DNA of 20,768 bases from a virus, in the IMG/VR virus record IMGVR_UViG_3300029987_000048, positions 1 through 20,768 of that record; one strand, written 5' to 3'. A program made the position numbers and the translations under genes. Positions 1 through 20,768 of this stretch are shown piece after piece. Position 1 is the first letter of the stretch, and each line of letters opens with the position of its first letter. The notes under the pieces were generated by a model. That model had not been told where the DNA came from, did not search any database, and worked only from the letters and a program-made list of their open reading frames with translations.

Positions 1-2
1 AA

Positions 3-227
3 GCGGGAGCAATGGGGTTGAACTTACAACGATCAAATAAAATCATTTACTTTAGTTTACCGCTATCAAGTGAGTTATTCGAGCAGAGCAAAAAGAGAAC
101 GCACAGAATCGGGCAAGAGCGAACATGCTTATATTATTACTTAATTACAGATAAGAGCATTGAGCAAGATATATTTAAAACTTTAAAAATGCGGAAGGAT
201 TATACCGACCAATTATTTGAGGGGTGA
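3..227 (+). CDS. SNF2-type DEAD/DEAH helicase, C-terminal fragment (cut by window edge)
   Basis: This is the last 74 codons of a gene that begins outside the window; the frame is open through base 3. The sequence shows helicase motif V (GAMGLNLQ, near the start) and motif VI (QSKKRTHRIGQ, about residues 29-39), the signature of SNF2/Rad54-like ATPases in the helicase C-terminal domain. The HRIGQ arginine completes the ATPase site of superfamily 2 helicases. Phage members of this family are about 450 residues long and sit in replication modules, where they are thought to remodel DNA or act in recombination. An internal ATG at base 12 is not a plausible start because motif V straddles it. The next gene starts 18 bases after the stop, so they are probably cotranscribed. 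Family assignment is firm; the exact role is inferred. Confidence 0.85.
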   Translation, partial: AGAMGLNLQRSNKIIYFSLPLSSELFEQSKKRTHRIGQERTCLYYYLITDKSIEQDIFKTLKMRKDYTDQLFEG

Positions 228-245
228 TTGTAGGAGGAAGGAACA

Positions 246-455
246 TTGAACATTGCGAGGGCAATAAGGTCATACAGATTAAAACAAGGGCTTACGCAGT
301 TGGATTTGGCAATTAAAATTGATAAGTCTACCAGGTGCATTAAGAGATATGAAAAAGGGGAGACAATCCCAAGTATAAAAGTATTAAGTGAAATATTTAG
401 TATATCAGTTGATGAAGTTATTGCAAAAGGATTAATAGGAAAGGGGATTATTTAA
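246..455 (+). CDS. Small XRE-family helix-turn-helix regulator
   Basis: A 69-residue protein that is almost entirely one Cro/C1-type HTH domain: IRSYRLKQGLTQLDLAIKI (residues 7-25) gives helices 1 and 2, and STRCIKRYEKGETIPSI continues through the recognition helix and the typical YEKGE turn. It would bind DNA as a dimer. The start is a TTG at 246, chosen because AGGAGG at 232-237 lies eight bases upstream. The gene is embedded in the replication operon, not placed at a divergent promoter, so it is more likely an early-gene modulator than the lysogeny repressor. The TGTCTA cluster at 6937-7147 is one possible binding site in this window, but nothing here links the two directly. Confidence 0.85.
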   Translation: MNIARAIRSYRLKQGLTQLDLAIKIDKSTRCIKRYEKGETIPSIKVLSEIFSISVDEVIAKGLIGKGII

Positions 456-456
456 A

Positions 457-717
457 ATGTATTATCAAATGAAGTATAACCCACATAATAATGAGTATGT
501 AATTGGAGGCTTAGAAGTAATTAGAGATATTGACACTACAAAAATGAATGAGGGTGTTACCTTGTTTTCGAGTAATACATGGGTAAGCAAAAAGAAAGCC
601 CCGTTAATTCAGTTTGCAAAAGAACACAAAGAAAAGTTAATGAATGATTGTATCGTACAACTAGAGAAAATCAAAAATAGAACCATAATAGAAAAGAAAA
701 AGGAATATAAAAATTAA
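457..717 (+). CDS. Hypothetical small phage protein
   Basis: An 86-residue protein that I do not recognise. It has an SD (AAAGGGG, 441-447) correctly spaced before ATG 457. The N-terminal half is mixed polar/hydrophobic and beta-like (YNPHNNEYVIGGLEVI, residues 7-22). The C-terminal half is a lysine/glutamate-rich probable helix (residues about 45-86). There is no signal peptide or membrane segment. It lies one base after the XRE gene and its TAA overlaps the ATG of the VRR-NUC gene (TAATG), so the three are translationally coupled. Its place suggests an accessory replication or recombination role, but that is only context. Confidence 0.7.
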   Translation: MYYQMKYNPHNNEYVIGGLEVIRDIDTTKMNEGVTLFSSNTWVSKKKAPLIQFAKEHKEKLMNDCIVQLEKIKNRTIIEKKKEYKN

Positions 718-1019
718 TGGCTAAAGAAAAGCAATTCGAGGATAAAATAAAAAAGTTTTTAAAAGAGTTACCCGACACCTGGTTTTTTAAACATTGGGCG
801 GGAGCATATAGTCAAAGTGGGATTCCTGATATTATAGCATGTATTAATGGGCATTTTGTAGGAATTGAAGTTAAGGCAGAAGACGGACACCCAAGCCCAT
901 TACAGATAAGAAATATTGACTTGATACAAAGGTCAAAGGGTTATGCGTATATTTTATACCCTAAAGATTTTGAACAGTTTAAAACAGACATGAGAGCATT
1001 AATAAAAGATATAAAATAA
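717..1019 (+). CDS. VRR-NUC domain endonuclease
   Basis: A 100-residue stand-alone VRR-NUC nuclease of the PD-(D/E)XK superfamily. The catalytic core is visible: SGIPDIIAC (residues 35-43) supplies the GxPD aspartate, GIEVKAEDG (about 49-57) supplies the ExK pair, and the following SPLQ places the conserved glutamine. Phage members of this size act as Mg-dependent nucleases. Some prefer Holliday junctions or flaps, and they are regularly found next to SNF2 helicases and primase genes, as here. The ATG overlaps the preceding stop. After its stop a 104-base gap with no gene separates it from the next gene, which has its own strong SD. Confidence 0.88.
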   Translation: MAKEKQFEDKIKKFLKELPDTWFFKHWAGAYSQSGIPDIIACINGHFVGIEVKAEDGHPSPLQIRNIDLIQRSKGYAYILYPKDFEQFKTDMRALIKDIK

Positions 1020-1123
1020 TATGAGTTAATACCGACATTAAGAAATTCAGTATAAACACATTTTTAAATATGACTACTTTGATAGAATTTATCAGAATTG
1101 AATTGAAAAGGAGATAATTAAAT

Positions 1124-2086
1124 ATGGCAGTAAAAACATTAATTTTAGGTGAATCGGGGACAGGGAAGTCAACGTCATTGAGAAACTTTAAGCCTGGGGA
1201 AATATGTTACATTAACCCCGCTAAAAAGCCCCTACCATTCAAAGGAAAGTTTGATTCATTAACAGGAACTACAGACATAAGAAAGATAGCCCAATTCATT
1301 AGAGAATCAAATAAAAAAATAGTTGTTATTGATGATGGACAATACATTATGTCATTTCAATATATGCATCGGCTTAAAGAATCGGGCTGGGATAAATACA
1401 ATGATATTCAATCCGATTACTTTCAATTGATTGAACTGGCGGACGAATTACCCGATGACGTAACGGTCTATTTCTTATCACATATAGAAGTAAAAGAAGA
1501 TGGAAGGCAAAAAATAAAAACCATTGGTAAAATGCTAGACGAAAAAATCACAATTGAGGGTATGTTCACAACAGTTTTAAAAACTCATGTTTCAGACGGA
1601 AAGTATTTCTTTATAACTCAAAATGGTGGAAATGATACAGTAAAAAGTCCAATGGGTATGTTCCCAACCTTTGCTATTGATAATGACTTAAAATATGTCG
1701 ATGAAAAAATCAGAAATTATTATGAAATTGGTGATTTTAAAAGCGATGAAGAAATGCAACAAGCCGACGAAATGGTTAAAAATGAAGAAATTGAAAAGGC
1801 AGTTAATGGCAGAGTAAAACGAACTAGAACAAGCGGAAAAGATACTGGTAATGAGGTCAAGGAAGAACCCAAAAAGGAAAGAAGAAAGAAAAAAGAAGAA
1901 CCGCCAGTAAATGAAGTAGTTCAAGAAATTTTACTTGATGAAAATAATAACATCAAAGTTGAAAAAGGTGAGCCGATTCCATTTGATGAAGCGACACCCG
2001 AGCAATTGAAATCCCCAGTAGAAGAACCCCAACCAATTAAAAGAGTTAAAAGAGATAGAACAAAAAAACCCACAGAAGATAAATGA
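1124..2086 (+). CDS. RecA-like AAA ATPase, Sak4-type recombination protein with charged C-terminal tail
   Basis: A 320-residue P-loop ATPase. Walker A is GESGTGKST (residues 9-17) and Walker B is IVVIDD (66-71). The compact RecA-like core ends near residue 200. This arrangement, directly followed by a DUF669 gene, is typical of phage Sak4-like single-strand annealing/RecA-like proteins that work with the phage ssDNA-binding protein. Residues 205-320 form a low-complexity tail rich in K, E, P and R. It contains two copies of a basic motif, RVKRTRT (230-236) and RVKRDRT (307-313), separated by an acidic linker. The tail is longer than the family core needs and may bind DNA or a partner. SD AAAGGAG lies upstream of ATG 1124. 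Confidence is good for the ATPase and moderate for the Sak4 label. Confidence 0.8.
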   Translation: MAVKTLILGESGTGKSTSLRNFKPGEICYINPAKKPLPFKGKFDSLTGTTDIRKIAQFIRESNKKIVVIDDGQYIMSFQYMHRLKESGWDKYNDIQSDYFQLIELADELPDDVTVYFLSHIEVKEDGRQKIKTIGKMLDEKITIEGMFTTVLKTHVSDGKYFFITQNGGNDTVKSPMGMFPTFAIDNDLKYVDEKIRNYYEIGDFKSDEEMQQADEMVKNEEIEKAVNGRVKRTRTSGKDTGNEVKEEPKKERRKKKEEPPVNEVVQEILLDENNNIKVEKGEPIPFDEATPEQLKSPVEEPQPIKRVKRDRTKKPTEDK

Positions 2087-2157
2087 ACTATAAAAGAGGA
2101 AGATATGCCCTTTTAAATAAAAATAAAAATAATTAATAGAAGTGAGGAATAATAAAA

Positions 2158-2607
2158 ATGAGTATATTTGATAAATTTAAAAATGGAATTAACCAAGAGG
2201 AAATAAACAACGCTATTGAAAGAGCCAAAGAAAACGGGAGCAATTACAAAGAAGTTACGGAGGGAATGTATACCGCTAAAGTTGAAAAAATTGAATTAGG
2301 AGTAACTAAAGGCGGAGCGGATAAAATTTCCGTATGGTTCAAGATAACAGAGGGAGAATTTAAAGGGTCTTTATTATTTAAAACGTTGGTTATGAATGAG
2401 CAATGGCAAATTGACCAAGCATTTAATTATATAACGTCATTAGGTTCTGAATTAGAAAGCGGCGACCTTAATAATGACGATGAATTACAAGACTATTTAA
2501 GTGATGTATTAACAGAAATAAACGATATAGGCTTAGAGTACAAAGTCCAATACACGGTAAACAATAAAGGGTTTGGAGATGTACACATAAAAGAAATTAT
2601 TGAGTAA
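2158..2607 (+). CDS. DUF669 family protein, probable ssDNA-binding protein
   Basis: A 149-residue protein of the DUF669 type. Recognisable features are the N-terminal MSIFDKFKNGI segment, the YTAKVEKIELGVTKGG strand pair and KISVWFKITEGEFKGSLLF (about residues 57-75), an OB-like pattern seen in phage proteins considered to replace SSB. The C-terminal half is acidic (ELESGDLNNDDELQDY), as expected for a protein that offers an acidic surface to partners. It lies immediately between the Sak4-like ATPase and the DNA polymerase, the usual position for the phage ssDNA-binding protein. SD-like GTGAGG precedes ATG 2158. The family call is from memory of sequence style and context; a DNA-binding role is inferred. 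Confidence 0.75.
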   Translation: MSIFDKFKNGINQEEINNAIERAKENGSNYKEVTEGMYTAKVEKIELGVTKGGADKISVWFKITEGEFKGSLLFKTLVMNEQWQIDQAFNYITSLGSELESGDLNNDDELQDYLSDVLTEINDIGLEYKVQYTVNNKGFGDVHIKEIIE

Positions 2608-2625
2608 TTAAATGGAGGGCTAATC

Positions 2626-4308
2626 ATGTTATTTTATGACTTTGAAGTATTCAAGTTTGATTGGTTGGTCGTAGTAAAAGACACCGACACCGAAAAAACT
2701 CACACTATAATAAATGACCCAGGAGCATTAAAAGACCTGTTTGAATTGAACCGTGAAAATATATGGTGCGGGTACAACTCAAAGCATTATGACCAGTATA
2801 TTTTAAAAGGTCTTTTATTGGACTTTGACCCGAAAGAAATTAATGACTTTATAATCGTAAAAAAAGAGCCTGGATATAAATTTAGTAATCTATTTAATAG
2901 ATTGAAATTTTATAGTTATGATTGCATGATTAACCCCTTATATTCTTTGAAGCAACTTGAGGGCTTCATGGGTAATGACATTAGGGAAACAACGGTCGAT
3001 TTTACAATTGACCGTAAGTTGACCGCCCAGGAACTAAAGGAAGTTGCTTTTTATTGTAACCATGACGTTGAGCAGACAATGGAAGTATTTCTAAATACTT
3101 ATGAAGAATTTGAAAGCACAATGTCATTAATAAAAGCCTTTGAATTGCCTTTTGAGAATGTAAGTAAAACAAAAGCTCAATTGTCAGCAATGATTTTAAA
3201 AGCTAGTCACAAGCCCCGTAATGACGAATTTAATGTAAAGATAGTTGATACATTAAAGGTTAAAAAGTATCGCCACATAGTCAAATGGTATCAAGATAAA
3301 AACAACCTGGATTATGAAAAAAGTTTAAAAATAGATGTTGCAAATGTTCCACATATATTTGCATGGGGGGGACTTCATGGAGCAATTAAAAATTATATTG
3401 GTGAAGGAATCTTTATAAATTCCGATGTTGGAAGTTATTACCCCGCCTTAATGATTGAATACGGCTTTTTAAGTAGGAATGTACAGAATCCAAAAGACTA
3501 TAAAAAGATAAGGGATATGAGGCTAGTTTTTAAAGCTGAAAAGAATCCATTACAACTACCATATAAGATTGTTCTTAATAGTACATATGGAGCAAGCAAA
3601 GACAAATACAACCCATTATATGACCCATTACAAGCCAACAACGTTTGTATAAATGGACAACTTTTATTATTGGATTTAATAGAGCATTTAGAACAACATT
3701 TCAAACTAATCCAAAGTAATACAGACGGGGTTATGTTCAAGCTGAAAAGTAAAAAGGATATTCCTTTATACATGGAAATTTGCAAGGAGTGGGAAACTAG
3801 AACCCGCATGACGTTAGAGCATGACGAAATTAAAAAGGTCATTCAAAAGGACGTTAATAATTACATGGTTGTTCTCAATAGTGGAAAGGTCAAGTCTAAG
3901 GGGGCATATGTCAAAGAGTTGAACCCCCTTGACTATGATTTACCAATAGTGAACAAAGCAGTAAAAGAATATTTTATAAATAATACACCAGTTGAGGACA
4001 CAATTAATAATTGTGATGAACTTAAGGAATTTCAGAAGATTGTAAAAATAACTTCAAAGTTTGCATATGCAATGCACAACGATCAAGTTTTGAGCGGTAA
4101 AGTTTTTAGGGTATTTGCTTCAAGAAAAAGAAGTGATAAAAGCATATTTAAGTTGAAGCAATGCAACCCATTTAAAATAGCAAATACACCCGATAAGTGT
4201 TTCATATTAAATGAAGATATAAATGGAGCATTAACCCCCAGGGCATTAAATAAGAAGTGGTATATAGAAATGGCAAATAAAAGAATAAGCGATTATAAAG
4301 GAGATTAA
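2626..4308 (+). CDS. Compact family B DNA polymerase with 3'-5' exonuclease motifs
   Basis: A 560-residue DNA polymerase. The exonuclease domain shows Exo I (YDFEVF, D5/E7), Exo II (YNSKHYD, N51 and D56) and Exo III (YCNHD, Y143/D147). The polymerase domain shows motif A (SDVGSYYPALM, D267), motif B (KIVLNSTYGA, K314 to G322) and motif C (SNTDGV, residues 364-369), followed by the KSKGAYVK segment (about 423-430). Motif C reads N-T-D where cellular family B enzymes have D-T-D, but the second, metal-binding aspartate (D367) is kept, so activity is expected. At 560 residues it is much shorter than T4-like polymerases (about 900). It presumably copies the phage genome together with the D5 primase-helicase. 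SD GGAGGG lies before ATG 2626. There are only four bases between its stop and the next ATG. Confidence 0.92.
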   Translation: MLFYDFEVFKFDWLVVVKDTDTEKTHTIINDPGALKDLFELNRENIWCGYNSKHYDQYILKGLLLDFDPKEINDFIIVKKEPGYKFSNLFNRLKFYSYDCMINPLYSLKQLEGFMGNDIRETTVDFTIDRKLTAQELKEVAFYCNHDVEQTMEVFLNTYEEFESTMSLIKAFELPFENVSKTKAQLSAMILKASHKPRNDEFNVKIVDTLKVKKYRHIVKWYQDKNNLDYEKSLKIDVANVPHIFAWGGLHGAIKNYIGEGIFINSDVGSYYPALMIEYGFLSRNVQNPKDYKKIRDMRLVFKAEKNPLQLPYKIVLNSTYGASKDKYNPLYDPLQANNVCINGQLLLLDLIEHLEQHFKLIQSNTDGVMFKLKSKKDIPLYMEICKEWETRTRMTLEHDEIKKVIQKDVNNYMVVLNSGKVKSKGAYVKELNPLDYDLPIVNKAVKEYFINNTPVEDTINNCDELKEFQKIVKITSKFAYAMHNDQVLSGKVFRVFASRKRSDKSIFKLKQCNPFKIANTPDKCFILNEDINGALTPRALNKKWYIEMANKRISDYKGD

Positions 4309-4312
4309 TTAA

Positions 4313-4786
4313 ATGGCAAAGAAAGAAGAATTTTGGTTGAAAGATGGCAATAACATTCATTCAGTTTGTCAAAAAGCCATATACACATATGGAGCAGAAC
4401 ACCAAAAAATAAAAGCTATTGAGGAACTAGGGGAGTTAATCGAATCAATGATGTTATCAGTTCAAAATGATGTTACCAATGTTGAAGAAGAAATTGCCGA
4501 TGTTGAAATAATGATGTGTCAATTAAGAAAAATGTATCAAGTTGACCCCGTCATATTTGAAGTTGTAGAAGGTGGTTTAAATTCAGATAAGATGTATTTA
4601 ATTATTGAATTGTCAAAATTAGTCCAAGCGATACCACGGTCACTAATTGGGGATAATCACACAGTTGAAACACAAATAATAAATGTTGAAAGAGCAATAA
4701 ATACAATAAGAACTATGTTTAATATGACTTTAATTAATGAAATTAAAATTCAAAAGCTTGAAAGGTTGGCGGGTAACGTATGGTAA
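4313..4786 (+). CDS. MazG-like NTP pyrophosphohydrolase family protein with an internal degenerate duplication
   Basis: A 157-residue all-helical protein. Residues about 34-45 (AIEELGELIESM) and about 60-70 (EEEIADVEIMM) reproduce the EExxE and ExxD-type metal-binding helices of MazG/all-alpha NTP pyrophosphatases, which hydrolyse non-canonical or signalling nucleotides. The second half repeats the same pattern without the acidic ligands (IELSKLVQAI, then VETQIINVERAI), which looks like a tandem domain duplication with a dead second copy. Phage MazG-like proteins have been proposed to lower ppGpp or clean nucleotide pools. Here the gene sits between the polymerase and primase-helicase. The stop overlaps the next gene's ATG by seven bases. 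The fold call is fairly safe; the substrate is unknown. Confidence 0.75.
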   Translation: MAKKEEFWLKDGNNIHSVCQKAIYTYGAEHQKIKAIEELGELIESMMLSVQNDVTNVEEEIADVEIMMCQLRKMYQVDPVIFEVVEGGLNSDKMYLIIELSKLVQAIPRSLIGDNHTVETQIINVERAINTIRTMFNMTLINEIKIQKLERLAGNVW

Positions 4787-5031
4787 ATCCAATTTACGGA
4801 TTATATCACGATAGGAAACAAGCTATATTGAAAATTGAACCTTTCAACAGTTATCTAAAATTGGACGGGCTAGAAAATGACGGGGTTGCACGGTGGAATG
4901 ATTATTACTATATATCAAATAGCCGAAAAGCCTTGAGAGATAAAGCGAAGGAAATAAAAAAAGAGTGGATTATTGAAACTCAATTAAGACTGGATTTATT
5001 AAAAGAATTGCCAGTAATTCATAAGTATTAA
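4780..5031 (+). CDS. Hypothetical small phage protein
   Basis: An 83-residue protein of unknown function. It starts at ATG 4780 inside the end of the MazG-like gene, so it is probably translationally coupled. The sequence has aromatic-rich beta-like segments (PIYGLYHDRKQAILKI at the N-terminus; RWNDYYYI near residues 39-46) and a basic helix at the C-terminus (ALRDKAKEIKKEW). There is no signal peptide or membrane segment. Position between a MazG-like gene and the primase-helicase suggests a replication accessory, but no motif supports a specific role. Confidence 0.65.
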   Translation: MVNPIYGLYHDRKQAILKIEPFNSYLKLDGLENDGVARWNDYYYISNSRKALRDKAKEIKKEWIIETQLRLDLLKELPVIHKY

Positions 5032-5047
5032 AAGGAGTGTAAAACAA

Positions 5048-6928
5048 ATGTTTAAGGGATATGTAGGAATGAAGGGTAAAAGACCTATTGAAAGTATAAA
5101 AGGGCGTACCGAATTTAGAACATTGGAGGAAGTGCAAGACCTGGAGGAATATGGCGGTGTGTTATCTGATGATTATATTTTAATAGATATTGATACTAAA
5201 GAAGAATCAGATATTTTATTGAAAATTATAAAAGATAAGAATATAAATTGTACAACCATTAAAACAACTAGGGGAGTTCACTTCTATTTTAAAAATGATG
5301 GAGTTGTAAGAAATAGTGTTCACCAGTATTCTGCAATAGGAATTATAACTGATGTTAAATTAGGGTCAAAGAGTGCCGTTATACCATTAAAGATTAAAGG
5401 GCAAATAAGACCCATGACAACCACAGGAACAGTTGATAAAATGCCGATATGGTTGAATGTCATTACTAAATGTCCCGATTTTAACAACCTGGAGGAAGGG
5501 GACGGAAGAAACCAAACTCTATTTAATTACATTCTTTTATTACAACGATTTGGATTTAGTAAACAAGAGATAAGAGAAACTTTGAATATTGTTAATGAAT
5601 ACATCTTAAAAGATAAATTAAAAGATTCTGAATTAAACACAATATTGCGTGATGAATCATTTACAAAGGAATCTTTCTTTGATGAATCGGGAAAGTGGTC
5701 ACATGATTTATTCGCTATATTCTTACAAAGAGAATACCACATTATAAAAATAAATAATGAGTTACATTATTATAATAATGGTGTTTATATAAATAATCCT
5801 TTAGGGCTTGAAAAGCTAACTATAACACATATTCCAAACCTTAACAGGGCTAAAAGGTCAGAGATAATTACATACTTAAATATCATTGCTGAAGATGTTA
5901 GATTAAGCGAACCCGATAAGATTCTCGTAAATAATGGATTACTAGATATTAATACCCTGGAACTAGAACCATTTACACCCGATTATGTGGCAGTTAATAA
6001 ATTACCAATTAATTATAATCCAGGGGCAACCAGTCCCGCAGTTGACCAGGTATTAAATAAAATATCATGTAATGATAAGGAATTGAGATTATTACTTGAA
6101 GAAATGGCGGGTTATACATTGTATCGTCGTCCAGAAATGGGGAAATGCTTCATTTTAACGGGTCGTGGTTCAAATGGTAAGAGTACATTACTTGATATGA
6201 TAAAAGGTATGTTAGGGGCTAATAACGTAAGTGCCGTGGGTATGGAAGAAATAGAAGGAAGATTTAAAACGGCTGAAATAGTTGGAAAGCTTGCAAACAT
6301 AGGGGACGATATTTCAAGTTCATATATGCCCGATAATGCAAAATTCAAAAAGCTTGTAACTGGTGAAACTCTATTAGTTGAAAGAAAAGGAAAAGACCCC
6401 TTTGAAATTAGGAATTTTGGAAAGCTAATATTTTCAGCTAATGAAATACCTAGAGTAAATGACACATCAAACGGGTTAAGCCGTAGATTAATAATTGTAC
6501 CTTTTAACGCTCGATTCAGTTCTAAGGATAAGGATTATGACCCATATATTAAAGATAAGCTAATGACCAATGAGTCATTGGAATACTTATTATTGTTAGG
6601 AGTTAACGGACTTAAAAGAGTATTGAAGGGTTATGAATTTACACAAGTTGAAAGCGTTAAAAAAGAGTTAGCAGAATATGAGAAAATAAACAACCCGATA
6701 TTAACATTCATCGAAGAAGTAAAAATAGTAAATGAACCCGTTCAAGATACATATTCTAAATATGTTATTTGGTGTCATAATAGCGGAATGAAACCAGTTA
6801 ATAAAACTAAGTTTACTAGAGAAGTTTTAGAGCATGGATTCGGAACAAGACAAATAAGAGTTTCAAAGCTTATGGAGATAAAAGGACAGAAACCAGGCGA
6901 CAGGGTTCAAGTATTTATACAAAAATAG
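5048..6928 (+). CDS. Primase-helicase: AEP-like N-terminus fused to D5/P4-type superfamily 3 helicase
   Basis: A 626-residue replication protein. The N-terminus resembles a short archaeo-eukaryotic primase/primpol: the hhDhD motif is ILIDID (residues 44-49), the sxH motif lies in TTRGVHFYF (73-81), and DVKLGSKSAVIPLK (102-115) may give the third motif. The helicase part has Walker A GRGSNGKST (372-380), Walker B LANIGDD (415-421), sensor-1 LIFSAN (460-465) and the arginine-rich SRRLIIVPF (478-486), as in D5/P4 alpha-type SF3 helicases. It would unwind and prime the origin. SD AAAGGAG precedes ATG 5048. The 255 bp directly downstream holds a dense set of short repeats that could be its origin. 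Helicase call very firm; primase activity inferred from motifs. Confidence 0.9.
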   Translation: MFKGYVGMKGKRPIESIKGRTEFRTLEEVQDLEEYGGVLSDDYILIDIDTKEESDILLKIIKDKNINCTTIKTTRGVHFYFKNDGVVRNSVHQYSAIGIITDVKLGSKSAVIPLKIKGQIRPMTTTGTVDKMPIWLNVITKCPDFNNLEEGDGRNQTLFNYILLLQRFGFSKQEIRETLNIVNEYILKDKLKDSELNTILRDESFTKESFFDESGKWSHDLFAIFLQREYHIIKINNELHYYNNGVYINNPLGLEKLTITHIPNLNRAKRSEIITYLNIIAEDVRLSEPDKILVNNGLLDINTLELEPFTPDYVAVNKLPINYNPGATSPAVDQVLNKISCNDKELRLLLEEMAGYTLYRRPEMGKCFILTGRGSNGKSTLLDMIKGMLGANNVSAVGMEEIEGRFKTAEIVGKLANIGDDISSSYMPDNAKFKKLVTGETLLVERKGKDPFEIRNFGKLIFSANEIPRVNDTSNGLSRRLIIVPFNARFSSKDKDYDPYIKDKLMTNESLEYLLLLGVNGLKRVLKGYEFTQVESVKKELAEYEKINNPILTFIEEVKIVNEPVQDTYSKYVIWCHNSGMKPVNKTKFTREVLEHGFGTRQIRVSKLMEIKGQKPGDRVQVFIQK

Positions 6929-7183
6929 TGGATAGACTTTGTCTAACTATGAATAGACAAAGGAAACGCCCACCCCGTAAGGGTTCAGCCGTTGTTGTCT
7001 ATCGTGTCTAACGTAAAAGGATTTCTTTAGTTATTTAGTTAGACGGAGTATATTAATATAAATAAAAGAAATACAGTAATATATAATAGACAAAAATTTT
7101 TTAAAATAGGTTCAAAGCATTGATATAACAGGGCTGATTCGTGTCTATCGAAAAGCCCGATTTTAAGAAAAAGGGGTATACTA
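6929..7183 (+). repeat. TGTCTA repeat cluster, candidate replication origin or operator region
   Basis: This 255 bp gap between the primase-helicase and the sigma-like gene contains no gene. It holds TGTCTA or its complement TAGACA at 6940-6945, 6954-6959, 6996-7001, 7005-7010, 7087-7092 and 7142-7147. Three copies extend to KTGTCTAWCG. The first two form a perfect 9-bp inverted repeat, CTTTGTCTA (6937-6945) and TAGACAAAG (6954-6962), with an 8-base loop. The two central copies are direct repeats nine bases apart. The region is followed by an AT-rich stretch (about 7040-7110). Iterons plus AT-rich DNA next to a D5-type primase-helicase suggest an origin; an operator for the XRE protein or for the downstream regulator is the alternative. 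Confidence 0.55.
7131..7158 (+). promoter_or_regulatory. Stem-loop presenting a TGTCTAT loop
   Basis: GGGCT (7131-7135) pairs with AGCCC (7154-7158), and TTCG (7138-7141) pairs with CGAA (7149-7152), leaving the heptamer TGTCTAT (7142-7148) as the loop. GATTTT follows, so it could be a weak terminator of the replication operon, or a structure that exposes the sixth TGTCTA copy. It lies 25 bases before the start codon of the next gene. Confidence 0.4.
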
Positions 7184-7651
7184 ATGAAAAATAACACATT
7201 TAAAAAAACAGAAAGAACACTTTATAATTATAGAAATATTGATTTGAAAATAGAAAATATAGATTTACATATAGAAAGATTGTTAAATGATGTATCAATT
7301 GCGGGGGTAAGTTATGAACAGAAATTCCCGACTAATGCCTTTAGTAGTTCAGTTGAGAATGAAGTCATTAAGAGAGAAGAACACCAGGCGGAAGAAATAC
7401 AAAAATTAAGGCAAATGAAAAATAATACAATTACATTAAAAAAGTTAGTACATAACGCCTTATGTAGTTTAAAAGAAGAAGAATACAAAATGGTTGAATT
7501 GAGATACTTACAAAAGGAAAAAACTTCATGGGTTGAAATAGGACTGACTTTAAGCCTAGACAATACAACGTGTCACAGAATTAAAAATAAGATAATAAAT
7601 ACATTAACAGACCTTATATATCCCAATGAATCAATAAATGATACTTTTTAG
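7184..7651 (+). CDS. Sigma-70 region 4-like phage transcription regulator (ArpU/late activator type)
   Basis: A 155-residue protein whose C-terminal part (about residues 95-145) is a sigma region-4-like helix-turn-helix: LKEEEYKMVELRYL, then SWVEIGLTLSLDNTTCHRIKNKI, the scanning and recognition helices. The N-terminal 90 residues are helical and charged, as in the phage late activators related to ArpU and RinA that sit between replication and packaging genes. It is expected to bind DNA near the late promoter and stimulate host RNA polymerase for terminase and structural genes. The gene stands alone, with repeat-rich DNA on both sides. An SD-like AAGGGG run at 7171-7176 precedes ATG 7184. The DNA-binding domain is clear; the late-activator role is inferred from position. 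Confidence 0.78.
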   Translation: MKNNTFKKTERTLYNYRNIDLKIENIDLHIERLLNDVSIAGVSYEQKFPTNAFSSSVENEVIKREEHQAEEIQKLRQMKNNTITLKKLVHNALCSLKEEEYKMVELRYLQKEKTSWVEIGLTLSLDNTTCHRIKNKIINTLTDLIYPNESINDTF

Positions 7652-14488: not shown

Positions 14489-15149
14489 AATAAGAAATAA
14501 TCAAGCCATATTGGACGGATATGTTAATGCAGTATGCAGAGATTCCAAGCCGTTATTAAGTCCCCAGGGGCTTTTTGTGGAGCAAGTGAAAGAAGGAGTT
14601 TTTCAAAGAGCATTAAACAGGGCTCAAGACGTAAAACTTTTATTTAACCATGATGAAAAAAGAGAACTAGGCTCAATTGTAAATGGAAATTTACAGTTAT
14701 TCGAGGATTCAATTGGGTTACGTGCAATATGTACAGTAGACGACCCCGAAGTCGTTCAGAAAGCAAAAGATAACCAGTTAAAGGGTTGGTCATTTGGTTT
14801 TTATTCTAATAAAGACGATTGGCAAAACGCCGAACCGTATCAGCGAAGATTTATTGAAGATATGGACTTATTAGAAGTATCAATATTGGATAAAACACCC
14901 GCTTATAATGGTACAAGTATCGAATCGAGAGATAACAAAGAGGTACTAACAGAAACTAGGGGCGATGATTTCCACGCAATCGTGGAGGATATGAGCCAGG
15001 CGAAGGAATGTGACAATGTTAATTGTTGCGATAAGTGTTGTAATACAGATTGTGAGAAACACGTTGCACCTGGTCACATGGGGGAATCAAGAACTTATGA
15101 TAATTCAAAATTTCATATGGAAATGTTAAAAGTAAAGCAATTCAACTAA
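14478..15149 (+). CDS. Prohead protease, HK97 (U35) family, with C-terminal cysteine cluster
   Basis: A 223-residue capsid maturation serine protease. The catalytic core is clear: LFNHDEKRELGSI carries H58, GWSFGFY carries S105, and EVSILDKTPAYNGT carries E133. The core ends near residue 150. The C-terminal extension contains TETRGDD (158-164), the same ETR motif that recurs in the capsid delta domain, and then a compact cysteine group (C178, C183, C184, C187, C188, C192, followed by H195) that could bind zinc and is not part of the usual protease. It would digest the delta domain of the major capsid protein. SD GGGGGTGAGG precedes ATG 14478. A terminator-like hairpin overlaps the end of the gene. 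Confidence 0.88.
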   Translation: MRIEIRNNQAILDGYVNAVCRDSKPLLSPQGLFVEQVKEGVFQRALNRAQDVKLLFNHDEKRELGSIVNGNLQLFEDSIGLRAICTVDDPEVVQKAKDNQLKGWSFGFYSNKDDWQNAEPYQRRFIEDMDLLEVSILDKTPAYNGTSIESRDNKEVLTETRGDDFHAIVEDMSQAKECDNVNCCDKCCNTDCEKHVAPGHMGESRTYDNSKFHMEMLKVKQFN

Positions 15150-15164
15150 TGAGTTGCTTTTTTT
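15134..15164 (+). terminator. Terminator-like hairpin between protease and capsid genes
   Basis: AAAGCAA (15134-15140) pairs with TTGCTTT (15154-15160) and a seven-T run follows (15158-15164). The structure overlaps the protease stop codon and lies about 60 bases before the capsid start. Partial termination or RNA processing here would separate protease from capsid expression. Confidence 0.5.
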
Positions 15165-15222
15165 ATACCCAATTATAAAAAAATTAAAAATTAAATTAAA
15201 GATGTAAAGGGGAAATATACAA

Positions 15223-16365
15223 ATGAAAACAGTTGAAATTAAAAGAACTTTAGAAACAAGAGCGTTACCGCCATTATTAGAGAAAAGAAATGAATTAATT
15301 GAGGAAATGGAAACATTAGTTTCAAAAGCAGATACAGAAACAAGAGCATTGAACACGGAAGAAATTGAAAGATTCAATGTGATTAAAAATGAAGTGGCGG
15401 CGATTGATGAAACCTTAAAAGCAGAAGAAGAAACAAGAGCCTATATAATGACTCCAGGTAAGAAAAAGGAAGTTGAAGAAACTCGATCAATTGAAGAAAC
15501 AAATTTCTTGAAATACTTGCAAGGTGAACAAAGAGCATTAGACATTGGGAGCAATGGCGGAATAATTCCACAAACAATTGCAAATAAAATAATCCTTAAG
15601 GTTAAGGAATTAAGCCCAATATATGCGTTAACAACAATCTATAATATCAATGGTGATTTAGTTTTCCCAGTTTACGACGAGGCAACATCGTCAATTATAG
15701 CTGACTATGTTGAAGATTTAAGAGAACTTAACGAGGCAACTGGTAAGTTTACTACAGTTAAATTGACAAATTATATTGTTGGTTGTTTAGCTAAAGTTTC
15801 AAAGTCATTAGTAAATAGACAAGACTTTGACCTTTTAGGTTTCATAGTAAATAGGGTTGCATATGCAATTTCAATATTCATTGAAAAAGAGCTGATTACT
15901 GGGACTGCAAAAATGAACGGTCTTGAATCTTGCGGAAATGTACTTACAACGGCGGGTGCTACAATATCAGCCGACGATATAATCGACGTACAAATGGAAG
16001 TACCCGAAATATATCAAAATGGGGCGGTTTGGATAATGCACAAAACAACTTTAAAATCCCTTAGAAAGTTGAAAGATACAACTGGAGAATATCTTTTAAA
16101 TAAAGATATTACAACGGCTTTTGGTTGGTCATTACTAGGAAAACCAGTCTATATTACTGAATCATGTAATGTAGCATTAACAGGTAAAAAGGTTATATTC
16201 TATGGAGATATGAGCGGACTTTATACAAAGTTAACTAAAAATGTTGAGTTACAAATATTAAATGAAAAGTTTGCAACTCAACATGCGGTTGGTTGTGTTG
16301 GATATATCGAAATTGATTCAAAAATCGTTGAGCCACAAAAGTTAGTAGCATTAAAAATAAAATAA
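15223..16365 (+). CDS. Major capsid protein, HK97 fold
   Basis: A 380-residue coat protein. The first about 105 residues are a charged, coiled-coil-rich delta (scaffold) domain, removed by the protease on maturation. The rest matches HK97-type coat proteins: GGIIPQTIANKIILKVKELS (about 112-131), the N-arm and E-loop region with LVFPVYDEATSS, the P-domain helix around NRVAYAISIFIEKELI, and the A-domain segment GWSLLGKPVYIT followed by VIFYGDMSGLYTKL. The delta domain carries four ETR motifs (11-13, 39-41, 70-72, 86-88) and one EQR (102-104), the last being a likely cleavage site before ALDIGSNGG. SD AAAGGGG precedes ATG 15223. The gene is bracketed by hairpins with T-runs, which suggests its expression is tuned separately. 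Confidence 0.92.
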   Translation: MKTVEIKRTLETRALPPLLEKRNELIEEMETLVSKADTETRALNTEEIERFNVIKNEVAAIDETLKAEEETRAYIMTPGKKKEVEETRSIEETNFLKYLQGEQRALDIGSNGGIIPQTIANKIILKVKELSPIYALTTIYNINGDLVFPVYDEATSSIIADYVEDLRELNEATGKFTTVKLTNYIVGCLAKVSKSLVNRQDFDLLGFIVNRVAYAISIFIEKELITGTAKMNGLESCGNVLTTAGATISADDIIDVQMEVPEIYQNGAVWIMHKTTLKSLRKLKDTTGEYLLNKDITTAFGWSLLGKPVYITESCNVALTGKKVIFYGDMSGLYTKLTKNVELQILNEKFATQHAVGCVGYIEIDSKIVEPQKLVALKIK

Positions 16366-16368
16366 TCT

Positions 16369-16393
16369 AGGGGGCGTATGCCCCTTATTTTTA
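16369..16393 (+). terminator. Terminator-like hairpin after the capsid gene
   Basis: AGGGGGC (16369-16375) pairs with GCCCCTT (16380-16386), with one G-U, around loop GTAT, followed by TATTTTTAT. It starts three bases after the capsid stop codon. The next gene has its own SD (AGGGTGA), so some readthrough must occur. Confidence 0.6.
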
Positions 16394-16405
16394 TAGGGTG
16401 ATTAA

Positions 16406-16684
16406 ATGAAATATAGTGAGATTACAATTGCAGAAGTTAGCGAATATATCAGAACATCGGACGAAGATAATTTAATAAATATTCTTTTGACTGCCAGTAA
16501 AGTATTTGTTAAAAGTTATACTGGTTTAAGTATAGAGCAATTAGACCTTTACGAAGATATACCAGTCGTGATTTTATGTTTATGTGCTGAAATGTACGAT
16601 AATAGACAATTTACAGTCAGTAAAAAAGATGTAAACCCAGTTATTAAAACAATACTTGATATGTACAGTATTAATTTATTATAG
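16406..16684 (+). CDS. Head-tail connector protein (HK97 gp6-like)
   Basis: A 92-residue, mostly helical adaptor. The pattern matches gp6/YqbG-type connectors that form a ring under the portal: ITIAEVSEYIRTSDEDNLI at the N-terminus, LLTASKVFVKSYTGLS (about 27-42), a PVVILCLCAEMYDNRQ helix (about 53-68) and a short tail ending IKTILDMYSINLL. Position directly after the capsid gene and before the head-closure gene is canonical. ATG 16406 follows SD AGGGTGA. Nine bases separate it from the next gene. There are no odd features. Confidence 0.85.
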   Translation: MKYSEITIAEVSEYIRTSDEDNLINILLTASKVFVKSYTGLSIEQLDLYEDIPVVILCLCAEMYDNRQFTVSKKDVNPVIKTILDMYSINLL

Positions 16685-16692
16685 GGGGTTAT

Positions 16693-17046
16693 ATGCAAGG
16701 ATTAACAAGCAGATTAAAAAACAAGCTGGCACTTTATGGGAAGACAATTAAATTAAATGAGTTGGGGGAAGATTTATTTGAATATGATGTTATTAAGTAC
16801 CCCGTATTTGCTGAAATACTGCCCCAGGGTGGACGTAATGAACAAGAGCAAGGAAATACAACTCAAGCAATTACAAGCCATAAAATAACCATTAGAAGTA
16901 ATTCAATTGATAATCTTAAAAATGATATGTTTTTTGTATATCAGAACCAAAGATATGATATTGAATATTTTAATCCGAACTATAAATATAATGATTCGGT
17001 TGAGATATCAGCCACTTTGATTGTAGGTGAATTTAAAAATGAGTGA
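16693..17046 (+). CDS. Phage head closure / head-tail adaptor protein
   Basis: A 117-residue, beta-rich protein resembling the head-tail joining (SPP1 gp16 / HK97 gp7-like) family. It has a helical N-terminus, central YPVFAEILPQGGRNEQEQGN (about 34-53), the strand THKITIRS-like segment ITSHKITIRSNS, and MFFVYQNQRYDIEYFNPNY (about 80-98), the typical 'modification of measured or bound ring' strand pair seen in this family. It would close the portal channel after packaging and give the tail its docking surface. Its stop overlaps the next gene by eight bases. The family call is supported strongly by gene order, moderately by sequence. Confidence 0.8.
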   Translation: MQGLTSRLKNKLALYGKTIKLNELGEDLFEYDVIKYPVFAEILPQGGRNEQEQGNTTQAITSHKITIRSNSIDNLKNDMFFVYQNQRYDIEYFNPNYKYNDSVEISATLIVGEFKNE

Positions 17047-17467
17047 TGATATTTTTGATTTTAAAGAGTTGACCCAGTATGAAAAAAAGCTTGTAGACAT
17101 GGCAAGTAATAAAATGCCCCGTGAAACAATGAAGTTTATTCGTAAAGAAGGAACACAATTAAGAAAAGTCACGGTGAAAAATGCCAGGGCTAAAGTGAAA
17201 AAGAAAACAGGAAATTATTTTAAATCCATAAAAAAGGGTAGGGCGTATATTTATCAGGGGAACGGCGGTACATCAATTCGGGTTTACTCTAATCAGTCAC
17301 ATGCCCACCTTATAGAAAAGGGTCATAGGATTGTTACACCTGGGGGAACTGTAAAAGGATTTAAACCAGGCTACCATATTTTTGAGAACTCCGAGAAGGA
17401 ATTTCAAAGCCAGTTCTATAATGACATTGAGAATTTTATTGATGATGTTATTGGAAAGGGGCTGTAA
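17039..17467 (+). CDS. HK97 gp10-like tail completion protein
   Basis: A 142-residue basic protein of the HK97 gp10 family, found between head-closure and tail-terminator genes. Distinctive parts are TVKNARAKVKKKTGNYFKSIKKG (about residues 45-67), the typical N-terminal 'K-T-G-x-L/Y-xxS' signature, and the segment SHAHLIEKGHRI (about 86-97), which matches the HxxLxExG motif of the family, and GYHIFENS further on. ATG 17039 is preferred over GTG 17027 because AGGTGA (17025-17030) is the SD. The protein is thought to help complete the tail or the head-tail interface. It is overlapped at the 5' end by the head-closure gene and followed two bases after its stop by the next ATG. Confidence 0.87.
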   Translation: MSDDIFDFKELTQYEKKLVDMASNKMPRETMKFIRKEGTQLRKVTVKNARAKVKKKTGNYFKSIKKGRAYIYQGNGGTSIRVYSNQSHAHLIEKGHRIVTPGGTVKGFKPGYHIFENSEKEFQSQFYNDIENFIDDVIGKGL

Positions 17468-17468
17468 A

Positions 17469-17933
17469 ATGATTTCTTTAATTGATATTAATAAAAGTAT
17501 AGTTTCAGCTATACGAGGGGCATTTATTGGGACACCTTTCGAGAGTACCACAATGATTCCTGGGGATATATCAGAAGGGTTTGACCGACCTGGATTAAAA
17601 GTTGATTTTGATAATATTAATCTAGAAAATATAAACGCTAATTTTAAGGCTAGAGCCTTAACAGTTAGGGTTTATTTTTTTGCCAAAGATTTAAAAAATT
17701 ACAAAATTGATAACTTACAAGTTCAAGAAATAATTGAGAATACCTTTATTAAGGGTATTTGGATTAACGGGTATTATATCCCCATAAATGACATTAATGC
17801 CGAGATAGTTGACACAGTATTAACGCTCGATTTTGATATATCAATAACCGCACAAAATGAAGAACCAACAGTCAACGAATTGGGTGAGGATATTGAGTTT
17901 ATGGAGGATTTAGAAACAGATTTTAAATATTAG
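17469..17933 (+). CDS. Tail terminator-like protein (phage tail terminator / DUF6838-type)
   Basis: A 154-residue protein. ATG 17469 is chosen because of AAAGGGG at 17455-17461; a longer open frame upstream overlaps the gp10-like gene and is not needed. The sequence has an N-terminal helix (SLIDINKSIVSAIRGAF), a strand-rich middle (RPGLKVDFDNI, ALTVRVYFFA) and an acidic C-terminus (NELGEDIEFMEDLETDF). It sits exactly where tail terminators lie, between the gp10-like gene and the sheath gene, and it would cap the tail tube and sheath and join them to the head. Specific family naming is from context and memory, so function is moderately supported. Confidence 0.7.
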   Translation: MISLIDINKSIVSAIRGAFIGTPFESTTMIPGDISEGFDRPGLKVDFDNINLENINANFKARALTVRVYFFAKDLKNYKIDNLQVQEIIENTFIKGIWINGYYIPINDINAEIVDTVLTLDFDISITAQNEEPTVNELGEDIEFMEDLETDFKY

Positions 17934-17944
17934 GAGGGCATTAC

Positions 17945-19030
17945 ATGGATATTACATTACCATTATTAGATATTAATTTTAAACAATTATCGCAGTCATT
18001 CATTGCAAGAAGTGAGCGAGGTGTGGCGATATTCATTATTAGGGACGACACGGACAAAACCTTTAGTTATAAAGAATATTTAGACCAGGAGGAATTGGAC
18101 ATAGACACGGCTTTATATACCGATGATAATTTTCTCAACTTATCAGATATTGTTGGTTTTGGGGTCGCAAAATTAGTTGTCATAAGAATAGATGTGGCGG
18201 GACATATGCCCGAGGCACTAACAATTATAGGCAATAAATTGAAAACGGGTTGGGTGTCTACAGTTGGAACTCAAGAAGACTATATTGCGATTGCAACATG
18301 GGTTAAGACGAGAGCATCGGAGGGCAGAACTTACATGACTTTAGGTTATAAATTAACTATGCCCGATAATGAATTTATTCATAATTTTACGAACCCAACC
18401 GTAACGTTTAAGGATATTAGGGGTAAGGTTGTGGGAGTTAATTATATACCATCATTATTAGCAATTGCGTGTGTATGCAATGTAACTAGGGGAATGACCT
18501 ATTATATATGTAAAAACCTTAAGGAAGTTGAACCAGTTGCAGATGTTAAAACCGCTTTAAATAATGGGGAATTAATTTTAATTAATGACTTTGACAAGGT
18601 TAGAGTAGGTACGGCAATCAATTCATTGGTTACTATTGATGAAACAAAAGGAAAGTTTGAGGATATGCGTTATATAGAAATCATGGAGGCGACTAACATG
18701 ATTCAAGACGATATAAGAGAAATTTATAAAAATGATTATGTTGGAGCATGTAAAAATAACTTAGATAATCAAATGATTTTTATATCAGCAGTCAACACAT
18801 ATTTTGGAGACTTAGCAGAAATTGAAATACTTGATAATAAATATGACAATTTATCATTTGTAAGTATTGCAAAACAACGTAAAGCATGGGAGTCAATAAA
18901 ACCCGAGGCCAAAACATGGGACGATACAAAAGTAAAAAATATGTCATTTAAAAGAAGTACATTTTTAGGGGCTGACATTAAGGTGTTGGGGTCTATGATG
19001 AACCTTGATTTTGACGTATCAATCGCATAG
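17945..19030 (+). CDS. Contractile tail sheath protein (XkdK/YqbM-type)
   Basis: A 361-residue sheath subunit, showing a myovirus-type contractile tail. The N-terminus contains the short strand typical of sheath proteins (FIARSERGVAIFIIRDDT, about residues 19-36). The C-terminal sheath domain has INDFDKVRVGTAINSLVTI (about 216-234), MRYIEIMEATNMIQDDIREIY (about 241-261) and NQMIFISAVNTYFGDLAE, the usual core and linkage segment. It ends in a strand, LGSMMNLDFDVSIA, used for handshakes between neighbouring subunits. Length is close to the PBSX-like sheath. SD GGAGG precedes ATG 17945. The tube gene follows after 13 bases, and both will be needed in many copies. Confidence 0.92.
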   Translation: MDITLPLLDINFKQLSQSFIARSERGVAIFIIRDDTDKTFSYKEYLDQEELDIDTALYTDDNFLNLSDIVGFGVAKLVVIRIDVAGHMPEALTIIGNKLKTGWVSTVGTQEDYIAIATWVKTRASEGRTYMTLGYKLTMPDNEFIHNFTNPTVTFKDIRGKVVGVNYIPSLLAIACVCNVTRGMTYYICKNLKEVEPVADVKTALNNGELILINDFDKVRVGTAINSLVTIDETKGKFEDMRYIEIMEATNMIQDDIREIYKNDYVGACKNNLDNQMIFISAVNTYFGDLAEIEILDNKYDNLSFVSIAKQRKAWESIKPEAKTWDDTKVKNMSFKRSTFLGADIKVLGSMMNLDFDVSIA

Positions 19031-19043
19031 GAGGAATTAAAGA

Positions 19044-19469
19044 ATGAGTGATATTGTAAATAAAATATTGACGGGTAATTCGGGGAAAGCCTGGTTAAAC
19101 GGTCAGTTATTAGCACAACTTAAAGCCATCGAATTAAAAGTAACTGGAAAATTTGACGATGTTAATTTTTGTGGGGACAGTTCCACACATTCAAAATATA
19201 CAGGGTGGAATGGTGAGGGTACTGTTACGTTATATAAGATTGATTCAACATTAATCAAGCTTATCGCAAACGCATATAAAACTGGAATAATGCCCGATAT
19301 AAAGTTGATTACAAAGTTAACAGATGAAAACACGGGCAAGTCAGAACGTGTTGCAGTAAGTGGAATTACAATAACTGAATTTACATTAGCAAAATTCGAG
19401 GCGAAAGCAAATGTTGAAGAAGAATTACCGTTAAAGTTCAGTAAGTACGAAATATTAGACACTATTTAA
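19044..19469 (+). CDS. Tail tube protein (XkdM-type)
   Basis: A 141-residue tube protein of the XkdM/DUF2001 type. Recognisable parts are ILTGNSGKAWLNGQLLAQLKAIELKVTGKF (about residues 8-37), the conserved G-x-A-x-x-NG opening, then FCGDSSTHSKYTGWNGEGTVTLYKID (the GxGT strand) and a C-terminal FEAKANVEEELPLKFSKYEILDTI. It forms stacked hexamer rings inside the sheath, the DNA passage. SD GGAGG precedes ATG 19044. A terminator-like hairpin overlaps the stop and another strong hairpin follows before the chaperone gene, which would lower expression of downstream genes compared with tube and sheath. Confidence 0.92.
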   Translation: MSDIVNKILTGNSGKAWLNGQLLAQLKAIELKVTGKFDDVNFCGDSSTHSKYTGWNGEGTVTLYKIDSTLIKLIANAYKTGIMPDIKLITKLTDENTGKSERVAVSGITITEFTLAKFEAKANVEEELPLKFSKYEILDTI

Positions 19470-19482
19470 TAGTGCTTTTTTT
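19460..19482 (+). terminator. Terminator-like hairpin overlapping the tail tube stop
   Basis: CACTAT (19460-19465) pairs with ATAGTG (19469-19474) and is followed by C and a seven-T run (19476-19482). The stem overlaps the last codons and stop of the tube gene, so translating ribosomes would partly prevent its formation. Confidence 0.5.
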
Positions 19483-19489
19483 ATGCTTA

Positions 19490-19524
19490 AAAATAGGTTT
19501 GACGTTAAAAGTTGAGCCTATTTT
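19490..19524 (+). promoter_or_regulatory. Long hairpin between tube and chaperone genes
   Basis: AAAATAGGTTTGAC (19490-19503) can pair with GTTGAGCCTATTTT (19511-19524) over 14 positions including three G-U pairs, around loop GTTAAAA. No good T-run follows. It may stabilise the upstream tube mRNA or act in processing. Confidence 0.5.
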
Positions 19525-19557
19525 CATTAAATAATATGAAAATTTGGAGGGTTACAC

Positions 19558-19950
19558 ATGAGTAAAAAAACAATGTTAAAAGCAACTTTTAAAGACCTAT
19601 TAGAAAAGAAAATTAAGAAAGAGCAAGAGCAATTTAAAGCAAAGGATATTAATGTTACATCTATGGATAGAGCATTGACATTCATAAAACCTAAAGACGA
19701 TGTTTTACTGGACGTAATCGACGAAATAGGCGAGGGAAAAGGCACGGGGGAAATGGTACAAGCTTTTAAAACATTGATTTATCATTGTTGCCCAATGCTC
19801 CAAGATACAGAACTACAATCACAACTTGAAGTATTAGACCCATTGGACACGGTTCAAGCTATATTCGACTTATCAGACATTATGGAAATAGGGGAGCAAT
19901 TAATGGAGTTAGTAAACATTAATGCAAAAGTTGAAGAAATAAAAAACTAA
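19558..19950 (+). CDS. Tail assembly chaperone, short form (XkdN/G-type)
   Basis: A 130-residue protein that lies between the tube and tape measure genes, the fixed place of tail assembly chaperones. It begins with a basic helix (LKATFKDLLEKKIKKEQEQF), then MDRALTFIKPKDDVLLDVIDEIGEG (about 41-65) and a helical C-terminus, resembling the PBSX XkdN family. The chaperone coats the tape measure protein while the tube assembles and is not part of the virion. The 0-frame ends at TAA 19948-19950, right after the slippery A AAA AAC, so a second longer product is made by frameshifting. SD GGAGG precedes ATG 19558. Confidence 0.85.
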   Translation: MSKKTMLKATFKDLLEKKIKKEQEQFKAKDINVTSMDRALTFIKPKDDVLLDVIDEIGEGKGTGEMVQAFKTLIYHCCPMLQDTELQSQLEVLDPLDTVQAIFDLSDIMEIGEQLMELVNINAKVEEIKN

Positions 19951-20120
19951 TTGAGCATAATTCAGAATTTAATATGTATGCCTTTTATTCAGTTAGGGGT
20001 TATACATTAGACCAGTTAGCAAATTTAAGTTATTTGGAACGGGTCTTTTTGCATTGTGCCAGGGGAGAACATTACAAGGAAGAAACCGCCAAATATAAAT
20101 CTATATTTGGCGGTAAATAA
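19558..20120 (+). CDS. Tail assembly chaperone, long form by programmed -1 frameshift (G-T type)
   Basis: Reading the 0-frame to AAC at 19945-19947 and then slipping one base back gives a frame open from 19947 to the stop at 20118-20120, adding 57 residues: it starts LIEHNSEF and includes NMYAFYSVRGYTLDQL, YLERVFLHCARGEHY and ends IFGGK. The predicted total is 187 residues. The extension is protein-like, has no start codon with SD of its own, and has the YxxxxxxGYT.. LxxLxxLxxxER style of T-domain extensions in phage tail chaperones. The T part recruits tube subunits while G binds the tape measure. The conserved G/G-T frameshift in dsDNA phage tails is established knowledge; here it is inferred from sequence, not measured. 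Confidence 0.8.
19941..19947 (+). other. -1 ribosomal frameshift slippery heptamer A AAA AAC
   Basis: The heptamer is in the exact X XXY YYZ phase of the upstream gene (ATA AAA AAC) and is directly followed by its TAA stop. Slippage by -1 lets ribosomes bypass the stop and enter the 57-codon extension. A purine-rich stretch just upstream (GAAGAAA, 19933-19939) may act as a weak SD stimulator; no strong downstream pseudoknot is apparent. Confidence 0.85.
20085..20114 (+). promoter_or_regulatory. 13-bp perfect hairpin at the end of the frameshift extension
   Basis: The arm at 20085-20097 is exactly complementary to 20102-20114 around an AATC tetraloop. The stem begins ACCGCC and ends GGCGGT, covering the last codons of the chaperone extension, six bases before the strong SD (GGGGGTG, 20121-20127) of the tape measure gene. 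No T-run follows, so it is not a normal terminator. Confidence 0.6.
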
Positions 20121-20132
20121 GGGGGTGTAATT

Positions 20133-20549
20133 TTGGCAAGAACTATTTCAGCCATATTAAATCTTAAAGATAATTTTTCCAACACCCTAAAAAATACTAC
20201 TAATAATACAAAGCAATTCCAAAGACAATTGAAAATGGTCGGTAACACCGCAAAAGAAATGAAGTCCGCAGTCGTCGGGTCATTAGGTGGATTAGTTGCG
20301 GGTGTTGGATTTCTAGAAGTAGCCAAACAATCAGTTATGTTAGCGAGTAATTTACAAGAAGTTCAAAACGTGGTTGATACCACATTCGGACAGGGTGCAA
20401 AGACTATCAATGATTGGTCACAAAATGCCTTAAAATCATTTGGACTATCAGAACTACAGGCGAAGAAATTTAATGGTACTTTAGGGGCTTTACTGAAATC
20501 GTCGGGACTATCGGGAGATCTGACCTACGGACAGTTAATAACCAAATAA
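20133..20549 (+). pseudogene. Tape measure protein, 5' fragment interrupted by an insertion sequence
   Basis: The first about 130 codons of a tail tape measure gene, TTG 20133 being placed five bases after SD GGGGGTG. The N-terminus (NLKDNFSNTLKNTTNNTKQF) has the usual coiled-coil start. VGSLGGLVAGVGFLEVAKQSVMLASNLQEV (about 47-76) is the hydrophobic segment and TTFGQGAKTINDWSQ with KSFGLSELQAKKFNG (about 88-117) are family hallmarks. Full tape measure proteins have several hundred to over a thousand residues. After GLSGD (about residue 129) the sequence changes character and a stop comes at 20547-20549. The remaining part, if present, should lie beyond the right edge. Loss of this protein would abolish tail formation. 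Confidence 0.8.
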
Positions 20550-20595
20550 TTTCCAAAATCCATTTTAAGAAAAAAATCGACTTTAAAATAATGAA

Positions 20596-20656
20596 AAACC
20601 ACCAATTCTAGTGTAAAATTGATTTGCAACAAACAATTTACCAAGAAAGGTGGTTT
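20596..20656 (+). promoter_or_regulatory. SD-sequestering inverted repeat upstream of the transposase
   Basis: AAACCACC (20596-20603) is exactly complementary to GGTGGTTT (20649-20656), which overlaps the transposase SD (AGAAAGGTGG, 20644-20653). RNA started upstream of 20596 would fold and hide the SD; RNA started inside the element, for example from TGTAAAAT (20612-20619), would lack the left arm. This is the known logic by which several ISs avoid activation by external transcription. Confidence 0.5.
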
Positions 20657-20660
20657 CTTC

Positions 20661-20768
20661 ATGATCAATGATCAAGAATATATTACTACAGAATTAAAAA
20701 AAGTGCTAGAAAAAATGATAATTTTATCTTCAACTCGTTTAAATAATTTAGTTGCAATGATTGTAGGT
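20661..20768 (+). CDS. Transposase, N-terminal fragment (cut by window edge)
   Basis: The first 36 codons of a gene that continues past the right edge. ATG 20661 follows the SD AGAAAGGTGG by seven bases. The visible part is helical (LKKVLEKMIILSSTRLNNLV) and looks like the N-terminal region of a DDE transposase, in the style of IS4-related clostridial elements, but too little is present to see catalytic residues or name a family. The call rests mainly on the disruption of the tape measure gene and the IS-like upstream control structure. Confidence 0.5.
   Translation, partial: MINDQEYITTELKKVLEKMIILSSTRLNNLVAMIVG

Follow-up and report, generated by a model that had tools for sequence, protein, structure and literature searches.

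Near-elimination of GATC and four other Type II restriction sites from the backbone of a tailed phage fragment, and opposite use of GATC in some of its relatives

The virus record IMGVR_UViG_3300029987_000048 (IMG/VR, positions 1 to 20,768; this whole stretch of 20,768 bases is referred to here as the window) raises the question of why the word GATC should be almost missing from most of a phage sequence while a segment inserted into it carries GATC as often as expected. Its genes mark the window as part of the genome of a contractile-tailed phage, in which a phage backbone of 18.9 kb can be separated from an inserted cassette and from a probable insertion sequence (IS) at the right end, both excluded from the backbone counts. 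The explanation that we favour, and consider very probable, is that Type II restriction systems, differing over time, exerted the selection that purged the backbone, and that the later insertions have remained unpurged.

The original prediction, made from the sequence alone, located GATC at eleven positions (31, 4081, 9044, 9343, 9573, 9661, 9991, 15485, 20517, 20663 and 20670), all of which are right, and claimed that the backbone is depleted of it. The observation is confirmed and is stronger than first stated, with 4 GATC in the backbone against 33.0 expected under a maximal-order Markov model (Poisson P 2.6e-10). Shuffling of synonymous codons, which preserves every protein and the codon usage, gave 34.4 expected against 5 observed when all backbone genes were taken (z -6.4, none of 500 shuffles as low), and 31.6 against 4 for the 21 longest backbone genes. 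The depletion is present in all three codon phases. GATA, GATT and GATG were said to be abundant, but GATG is mildly low in comparison with codon shuffles. The site at 20517, placed by the prediction at the IS junction, spans the point where the alignment stops (20519) and belongs cleanly neither to the backbone nor to the IS.

In regard to the specificity of this depletion, four further words are missing from the backbone as strongly as GATC, namely CCGG (0 observed, 27 expected by the Markov model), GGCC (1 and 25), GCGC (0 and 12) and CGCG (0 and 10), and codon shuffles agree. The remaining 4-bp palindromes are near expectation, with TCGA, ACGT and CATG not depleted. A general avoidance of palindromes is therefore rejected for 4-bp words, and an effect of CpG is ruled out, since neither TCGA nor ACGT is reduced. 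The enzymes for the five missing words are DpnII/MboI, HpaII/MspI, HaeIII, HhaI/CfoI and BstUI/ThaI, all of them common four-base Type II enzymes. Selection against GATC only, as originally proposed, is thus too narrow, four other Type II sites being equally avoided, and the pattern is one of avoidance of multiple enzymes.

Relatives of the window were found by a terminase search of viral contigs. The close ones, L008 and L009 (99.9% nucleotide identity), L001 (89%) and L002 (82%), are all poor in GATC, with 1 observed against 13 expected by the Markov model in L008, 1 against 9 in L009, 1 against 14 in L001 and 4 against 21 in L002. Two further phages, L003 and L004, are about 40 kb long, syntenic with the window and roughly 71-77% identical to it in the main blocks. 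Pooled, they likewise avoid CCGG (2 of 110 expected), GGCC (5 of 114), GCGC (4 of 67) and CGCG (6 of 74), and GATC is enriched in both (151 against 76 expected in L003, 165 against 85 in L004). The more distant L054, with a primase 66% identical, is also rich in GATC (161 against 104) and avoids neither CCGG nor GGCC nor the other two words, while L011, further out, is mildly poor in GATC and avoids none of the other four words. As read from these counts, avoidance profiles differ from branch to branch, which points to branch-to-branch change in the avoided sites and would be expected from different host enzymes. The long exposure suggested in the original prediction agrees with the avoidance of CCGG, GGCC, GCGC and CGCG, which the window shares with L003 and L004, but not with that of GATC, which is confined to the branch leading to the window after the split from L003/L004.

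Other words also deviate in these phages. Six-base palindromes are mildly low (412 against 506 expected outside the depleted cores), a slight deficit that the two groups of phages have in common. CCWGG is over-used about threefold, with 50 observed against 17 expected in the window backbone together with L002 and 119 against 44 in L003/L004, while a strong depletion of TCWGG and GCWGG is seen in the window's group and in L003/L004, and L054 has no CCWGG at all.

The loss of GATC could be followed site by site in nineteen genes aligned codon by codon between the window and its relatives. The window kept 1 of 112 aligned GATC sites of L003, 1 of 123 of L004 and 0 of 69 of L054, whereas between L003 and L004 69% of GATC are kept, close to the value for GATA (70%). 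Where L003 and L004 have a site in common, GATC is retained in the window at 1 of 74, in comparison with 70 of 113 for the neighbouring words (P 5e-20), i.e., 38 of 71 GATA, 20 of 28 GATT and 12 of 14 GATG. Where the site is conserved in L054 too, the window retains none of 10 GATC against 16 of 20 GATA, GATT and GATG (P 3e-5). The protein sequence is preserved at 47 of these 74 GATC sites (64%) and at 82 of the 113 controls, and this difference is not significant (P 0.20). On this alignment evidence, the purge is specific in sequence and arose in the window's lineage, and is something other than a shift in base composition; selection acting on the backbone, as claimed originally, is strongly supported.

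The single GATC retained from L003/L004 (15485..15488, no strand assigned) lies in the gene of the major head protein and is kept in all close relatives; it reads CGATCA in all four of them and AGATCA in L003/L004. It persists in spite of being removable by a synonymous change. Among the seven distinct GATC survivors of the window and L002, CGATC occurs five times (a rough test gives P 0.02), which we take as no more than a lead.

The cassette (9061..10705, plus strand) behaves differently from the sequence surrounding it. It holds 4 GATC (9343, 9573, 9661 and 9991) against 3.9 expected, as an unpurged segment should, and its difference from the backbone has a P between 0.006 and 0.0015, while its G+C content is too low for judging CCGG, GGCC, GCGC and CGCG (0.6-1.2 expected of each). 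Its status as a later arrival is also supported, since L004 has no insert at this spot and L003 has different genes there; with respect to L004, the alignment shows the cassette to be inserted. It encodes a protein with an SH3 domain, apparently secreted (9180-9542, plus strand, PF08239), and an M28-family peptidase (9718-10719, plus strand, PF04389) with a leader that, read by eye, resembles the lipoprotein type. Relatives of the peptidase were absent from the viral contigs, and plasmids and phages gave distant matches only, below 40% identity. The place just upstream of the terminase genes looks like a hot spot for extra genes (9057-11050 in the window, about 7540-9500 in L003, 7402-7523 in L004), occupied by the SH3 protein and the peptidase in the window, by a different pair, both putative membrane proteins, in L003 and by almost nothing in L004. 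At the right end, the probable IS (20520..20768, plus strand) is cut off by the end of the contig; the homology to L002 and L004 stops at 20519, and within 20133-20768 the tape-measure gene is broken by the probable IS after this position. The IS stub of 249 bp contains 2 GATC (20663 and 20670) against 0.9 expected, and is too short to judge.

If restriction was the selecting agent, the events could have proceeded as follows. The ancestor common to L003/L004 and the window would already have lacked CCGG, GGCC, GCGC and CGCG. After the split from L003/L004, the window's lineage would have met a system cutting at GATC, of the DpnII/MboI/CpaI type or a mixture of enzymes, and nearly every GATC would then have been lost, mostly through synonymous point changes. 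Each unmethylated site would be a chance of being cut at entry, so that genomes with fewer sites would leave more descendants until few sites or none remained. The SH3/M28 cassette and the terminal IS would have been inserted later and would still be unpurged. In outline, restriction as originally proposed is the best explanation of the data, and restriction as the selecting agent, the particular enzymes and the host are what we infer.

It is also conceivable that the depletion follows from a mutational bias or from the composition of the host genome, in that the phage took on by drift the words used by a host poor in GATC. In samples of Clostridiaceae chromosomes, GATC stands at about 0.56 of expectation, and one of these chromosomes, G060 (L040, L128, L129), has 3 GATC against about 90 expected in 40 kb, from which it follows that cellular genomes can be purged too. 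Nevertheless, the backbone stands at 0.12 of expectation, low even against a background of 0.56 (P 6e-5), while GATA, GATT and GATG are normally kept at conserved sites and five unrelated palindromes are gone together when TCGA, ACGT and CATG are not. A host that had itself been purged would, moreover, need the same cause, and we regard this reading as quite improbable. Removal of GATC by mismatch repair of the MutH type, nicking at unmethylated GATC, would leave CCGG, GGCC, GCGC and CGCG in place, and MutH/Dam repair is not known from Clostridia, no search for MutH having been made; we consider this alternative extremely improbable here. The mechanism does act on GATC and has been proposed for enterobacterial phages, according to a reference cited in PMC4687349.

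The third alternative turns the argument around, in that GATC would never have been selected against in the window's lineage, and L003, L004 and L054 would have gained it under a positive pressure that was later lost in the window's group. The ratio of observed to expected GATC, about 1.95 in L003/L004 and 1.55 in L054 in all codon phases, compared with 0.56 in the chromosomes, speaks in its favour. The loss of such a pressure should, however, lead back to about the background and not to 0.12, and it would not delete 73 of 74 conserved GATC while most GATA, GATT and GATG stay, so that this history appears quite improbable.

Several points weigh against purging by restriction systems. Several asymmetric words are also depleted, which orthodox avoidance of Type II sites does not explain, and selection against these words could have a cause different from restriction. 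Near-elimination of sites is less frequent in temperate than in non-temperate phages (PMC6286503), and the relatives of the window look temperate. Finally, no close host could be named, either from the terminase compared with the Clostridiaceae, the Clostridia, one further order and the phylum, or from phage and plasmid collections, or from the frame of the terminal IS. The best prophage terminase match is 60% identical (G341). The host group is probably the Clostridia within the Bacillota, as the terminase, the primase and an amidase of L003 found only distant matches there.

Of 204 Clostridiaceae genomes, 16 have endonucleases of the DpnII family that exceed the curated cut-off. No nuclease of the DpnI family was above the cut-off in the 204 Clostridiaceae or in 11 selected Clostridia genomes, and no control genome matched either. 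The GATC-poor chromosome G060 had no match to the DpnI or the DpnII family. Within the Clostridiaceae, the frequency of GATC in the chromosome showed no association with DpnII genes (P 0.79), and this says nothing about avoidance in phages, since hosts with such genes methylate their own sites.

The excess of GATC that the sister phages show is a genuine puzzle, not accounted for by ordinary avoidance, and it is the more interesting loose end. GATC is over-used 1.5-2 times in L003, L004 and L054, in all three codon phases. In L003/L004 the excess consists almost entirely of RGATCR/YGATCY (371 against 140 expected), while RGATCY (7 of 34) and TGATCA (1 of 20) are purged. It is possible, although we think it rather unlikely, that a single family switches GATC from a favoured state, as in L003, L004 and L054, to elimination, the favoured state reflecting an undescribed benefit or a repair bias tied to GATC. 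A host modification mark useful to phages may be an example of such a benefit, with overlapping restriction systems shaping the flanks. Shielding of the GATC-rich relatives by a methyltransferase of their own was tried as an explanation and rejected for two adenine/N4-cytosine families, as no MethyltransfD12 or N6_N4_Mtase match was found in the window, L002, L003, L004 or L054, of which the window, L002 and L054 are fragments; 5-methylcytosine (m5C) methyltransferases were not searched for. The record of the distant relative L011 does contain a gene for a Dam-family (MethyltransfD12) adenine methyltransferase (G008:C1:32499-33218).

The left part of the backbone (1..9060, plus strand), which aligns with L003, L004 and partly with L054, is predicted to encode a Sak4-like annealing protein, an SSB, a DNA polymerase and a primase for replication, and it also has an HNH endonuclease and a conserved gene (8490-9056); CCGG, GGCC, GCGC and CGCG are almost absent from it, and its only GATC are those at 31, 4081 and 9044. 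The right part (10706..20519, plus strand) appears to carry the genes of the terminase, portal, head protease, major head protein, tail sheath and a further tail protein, probably of the tube, as well as the start of the tape-measure gene, and contains GATC at 15485 only, apart from the junction site. Fuller members of the family, L003 and L004, encode an apparent tyrosine integrase and repressor-like HTH proteins, as translations read by eye suggest, so that the family is probably temperate, the window itself being a fragment. L003 also has a DUF2971 protein matching the candidate defence family PDC-S31 (L014 6976-7863, minus strand), and a small, apparently secreted protein of 129 amino acids, encoded at L014 4901-5290 on the minus strand, looks by eye like bacteriocins of the lactococcin 972 type, with no Pfam match.

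Avoidance of restriction sites is already well known, and the window is a well-resolved case of this anti-restriction strategy. Rusinov et al. (2018) surveyed nearly 4000 prokaryotic viruses and found avoidance of Type II sites to be widespread, with near-elimination in about a tenth of the genomes (PMC6286503). As in the phages of that survey, GATC is among the avoided sites. Unlike what is typical there, near-elimination affects five words at once in a family with temperate-looking fuller members, and the change can be traced site by site among relatives. In Clostridium, CpaI, which recognizes GATC, has been described as common, and C. pasteurianum is proven to have CpaAI (CGCG) (PMC4245778, PMC5027557). 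These activities, proven in one Clostridium strain, match two of the five avoided words; no link of C. pasteurianum to the phage was found, and the search for enzymes did not extend to CCGG, GGCC and GCGC. Related mycobacteriophages of cluster B likewise shift sharply in GATC use genome-wide (PMC4841201). In subcluster B3, both GATC and GGATCC are enriched, whereas here L003/L004 are enriched in GATC with GGATCC absent, and the other branch is nearly free of GATC. It is less expected that a probably temperate family should have nearly lost five sites, and that sister phages should carry GATC in excess.

As a rule, avoidance is deduced from the counts in one genome at a time, and aligned relatives with opposite use of GATC add built-in controls to such counts. 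They also give an order of events, in which the loss of CCGG, GGCC, GCGC and CGCG would come first and the loss of GATC later, with the cassette and the IS not yet purged. In this way, the avoidance profile of a phage can document which enzymes its past hosts possessed.

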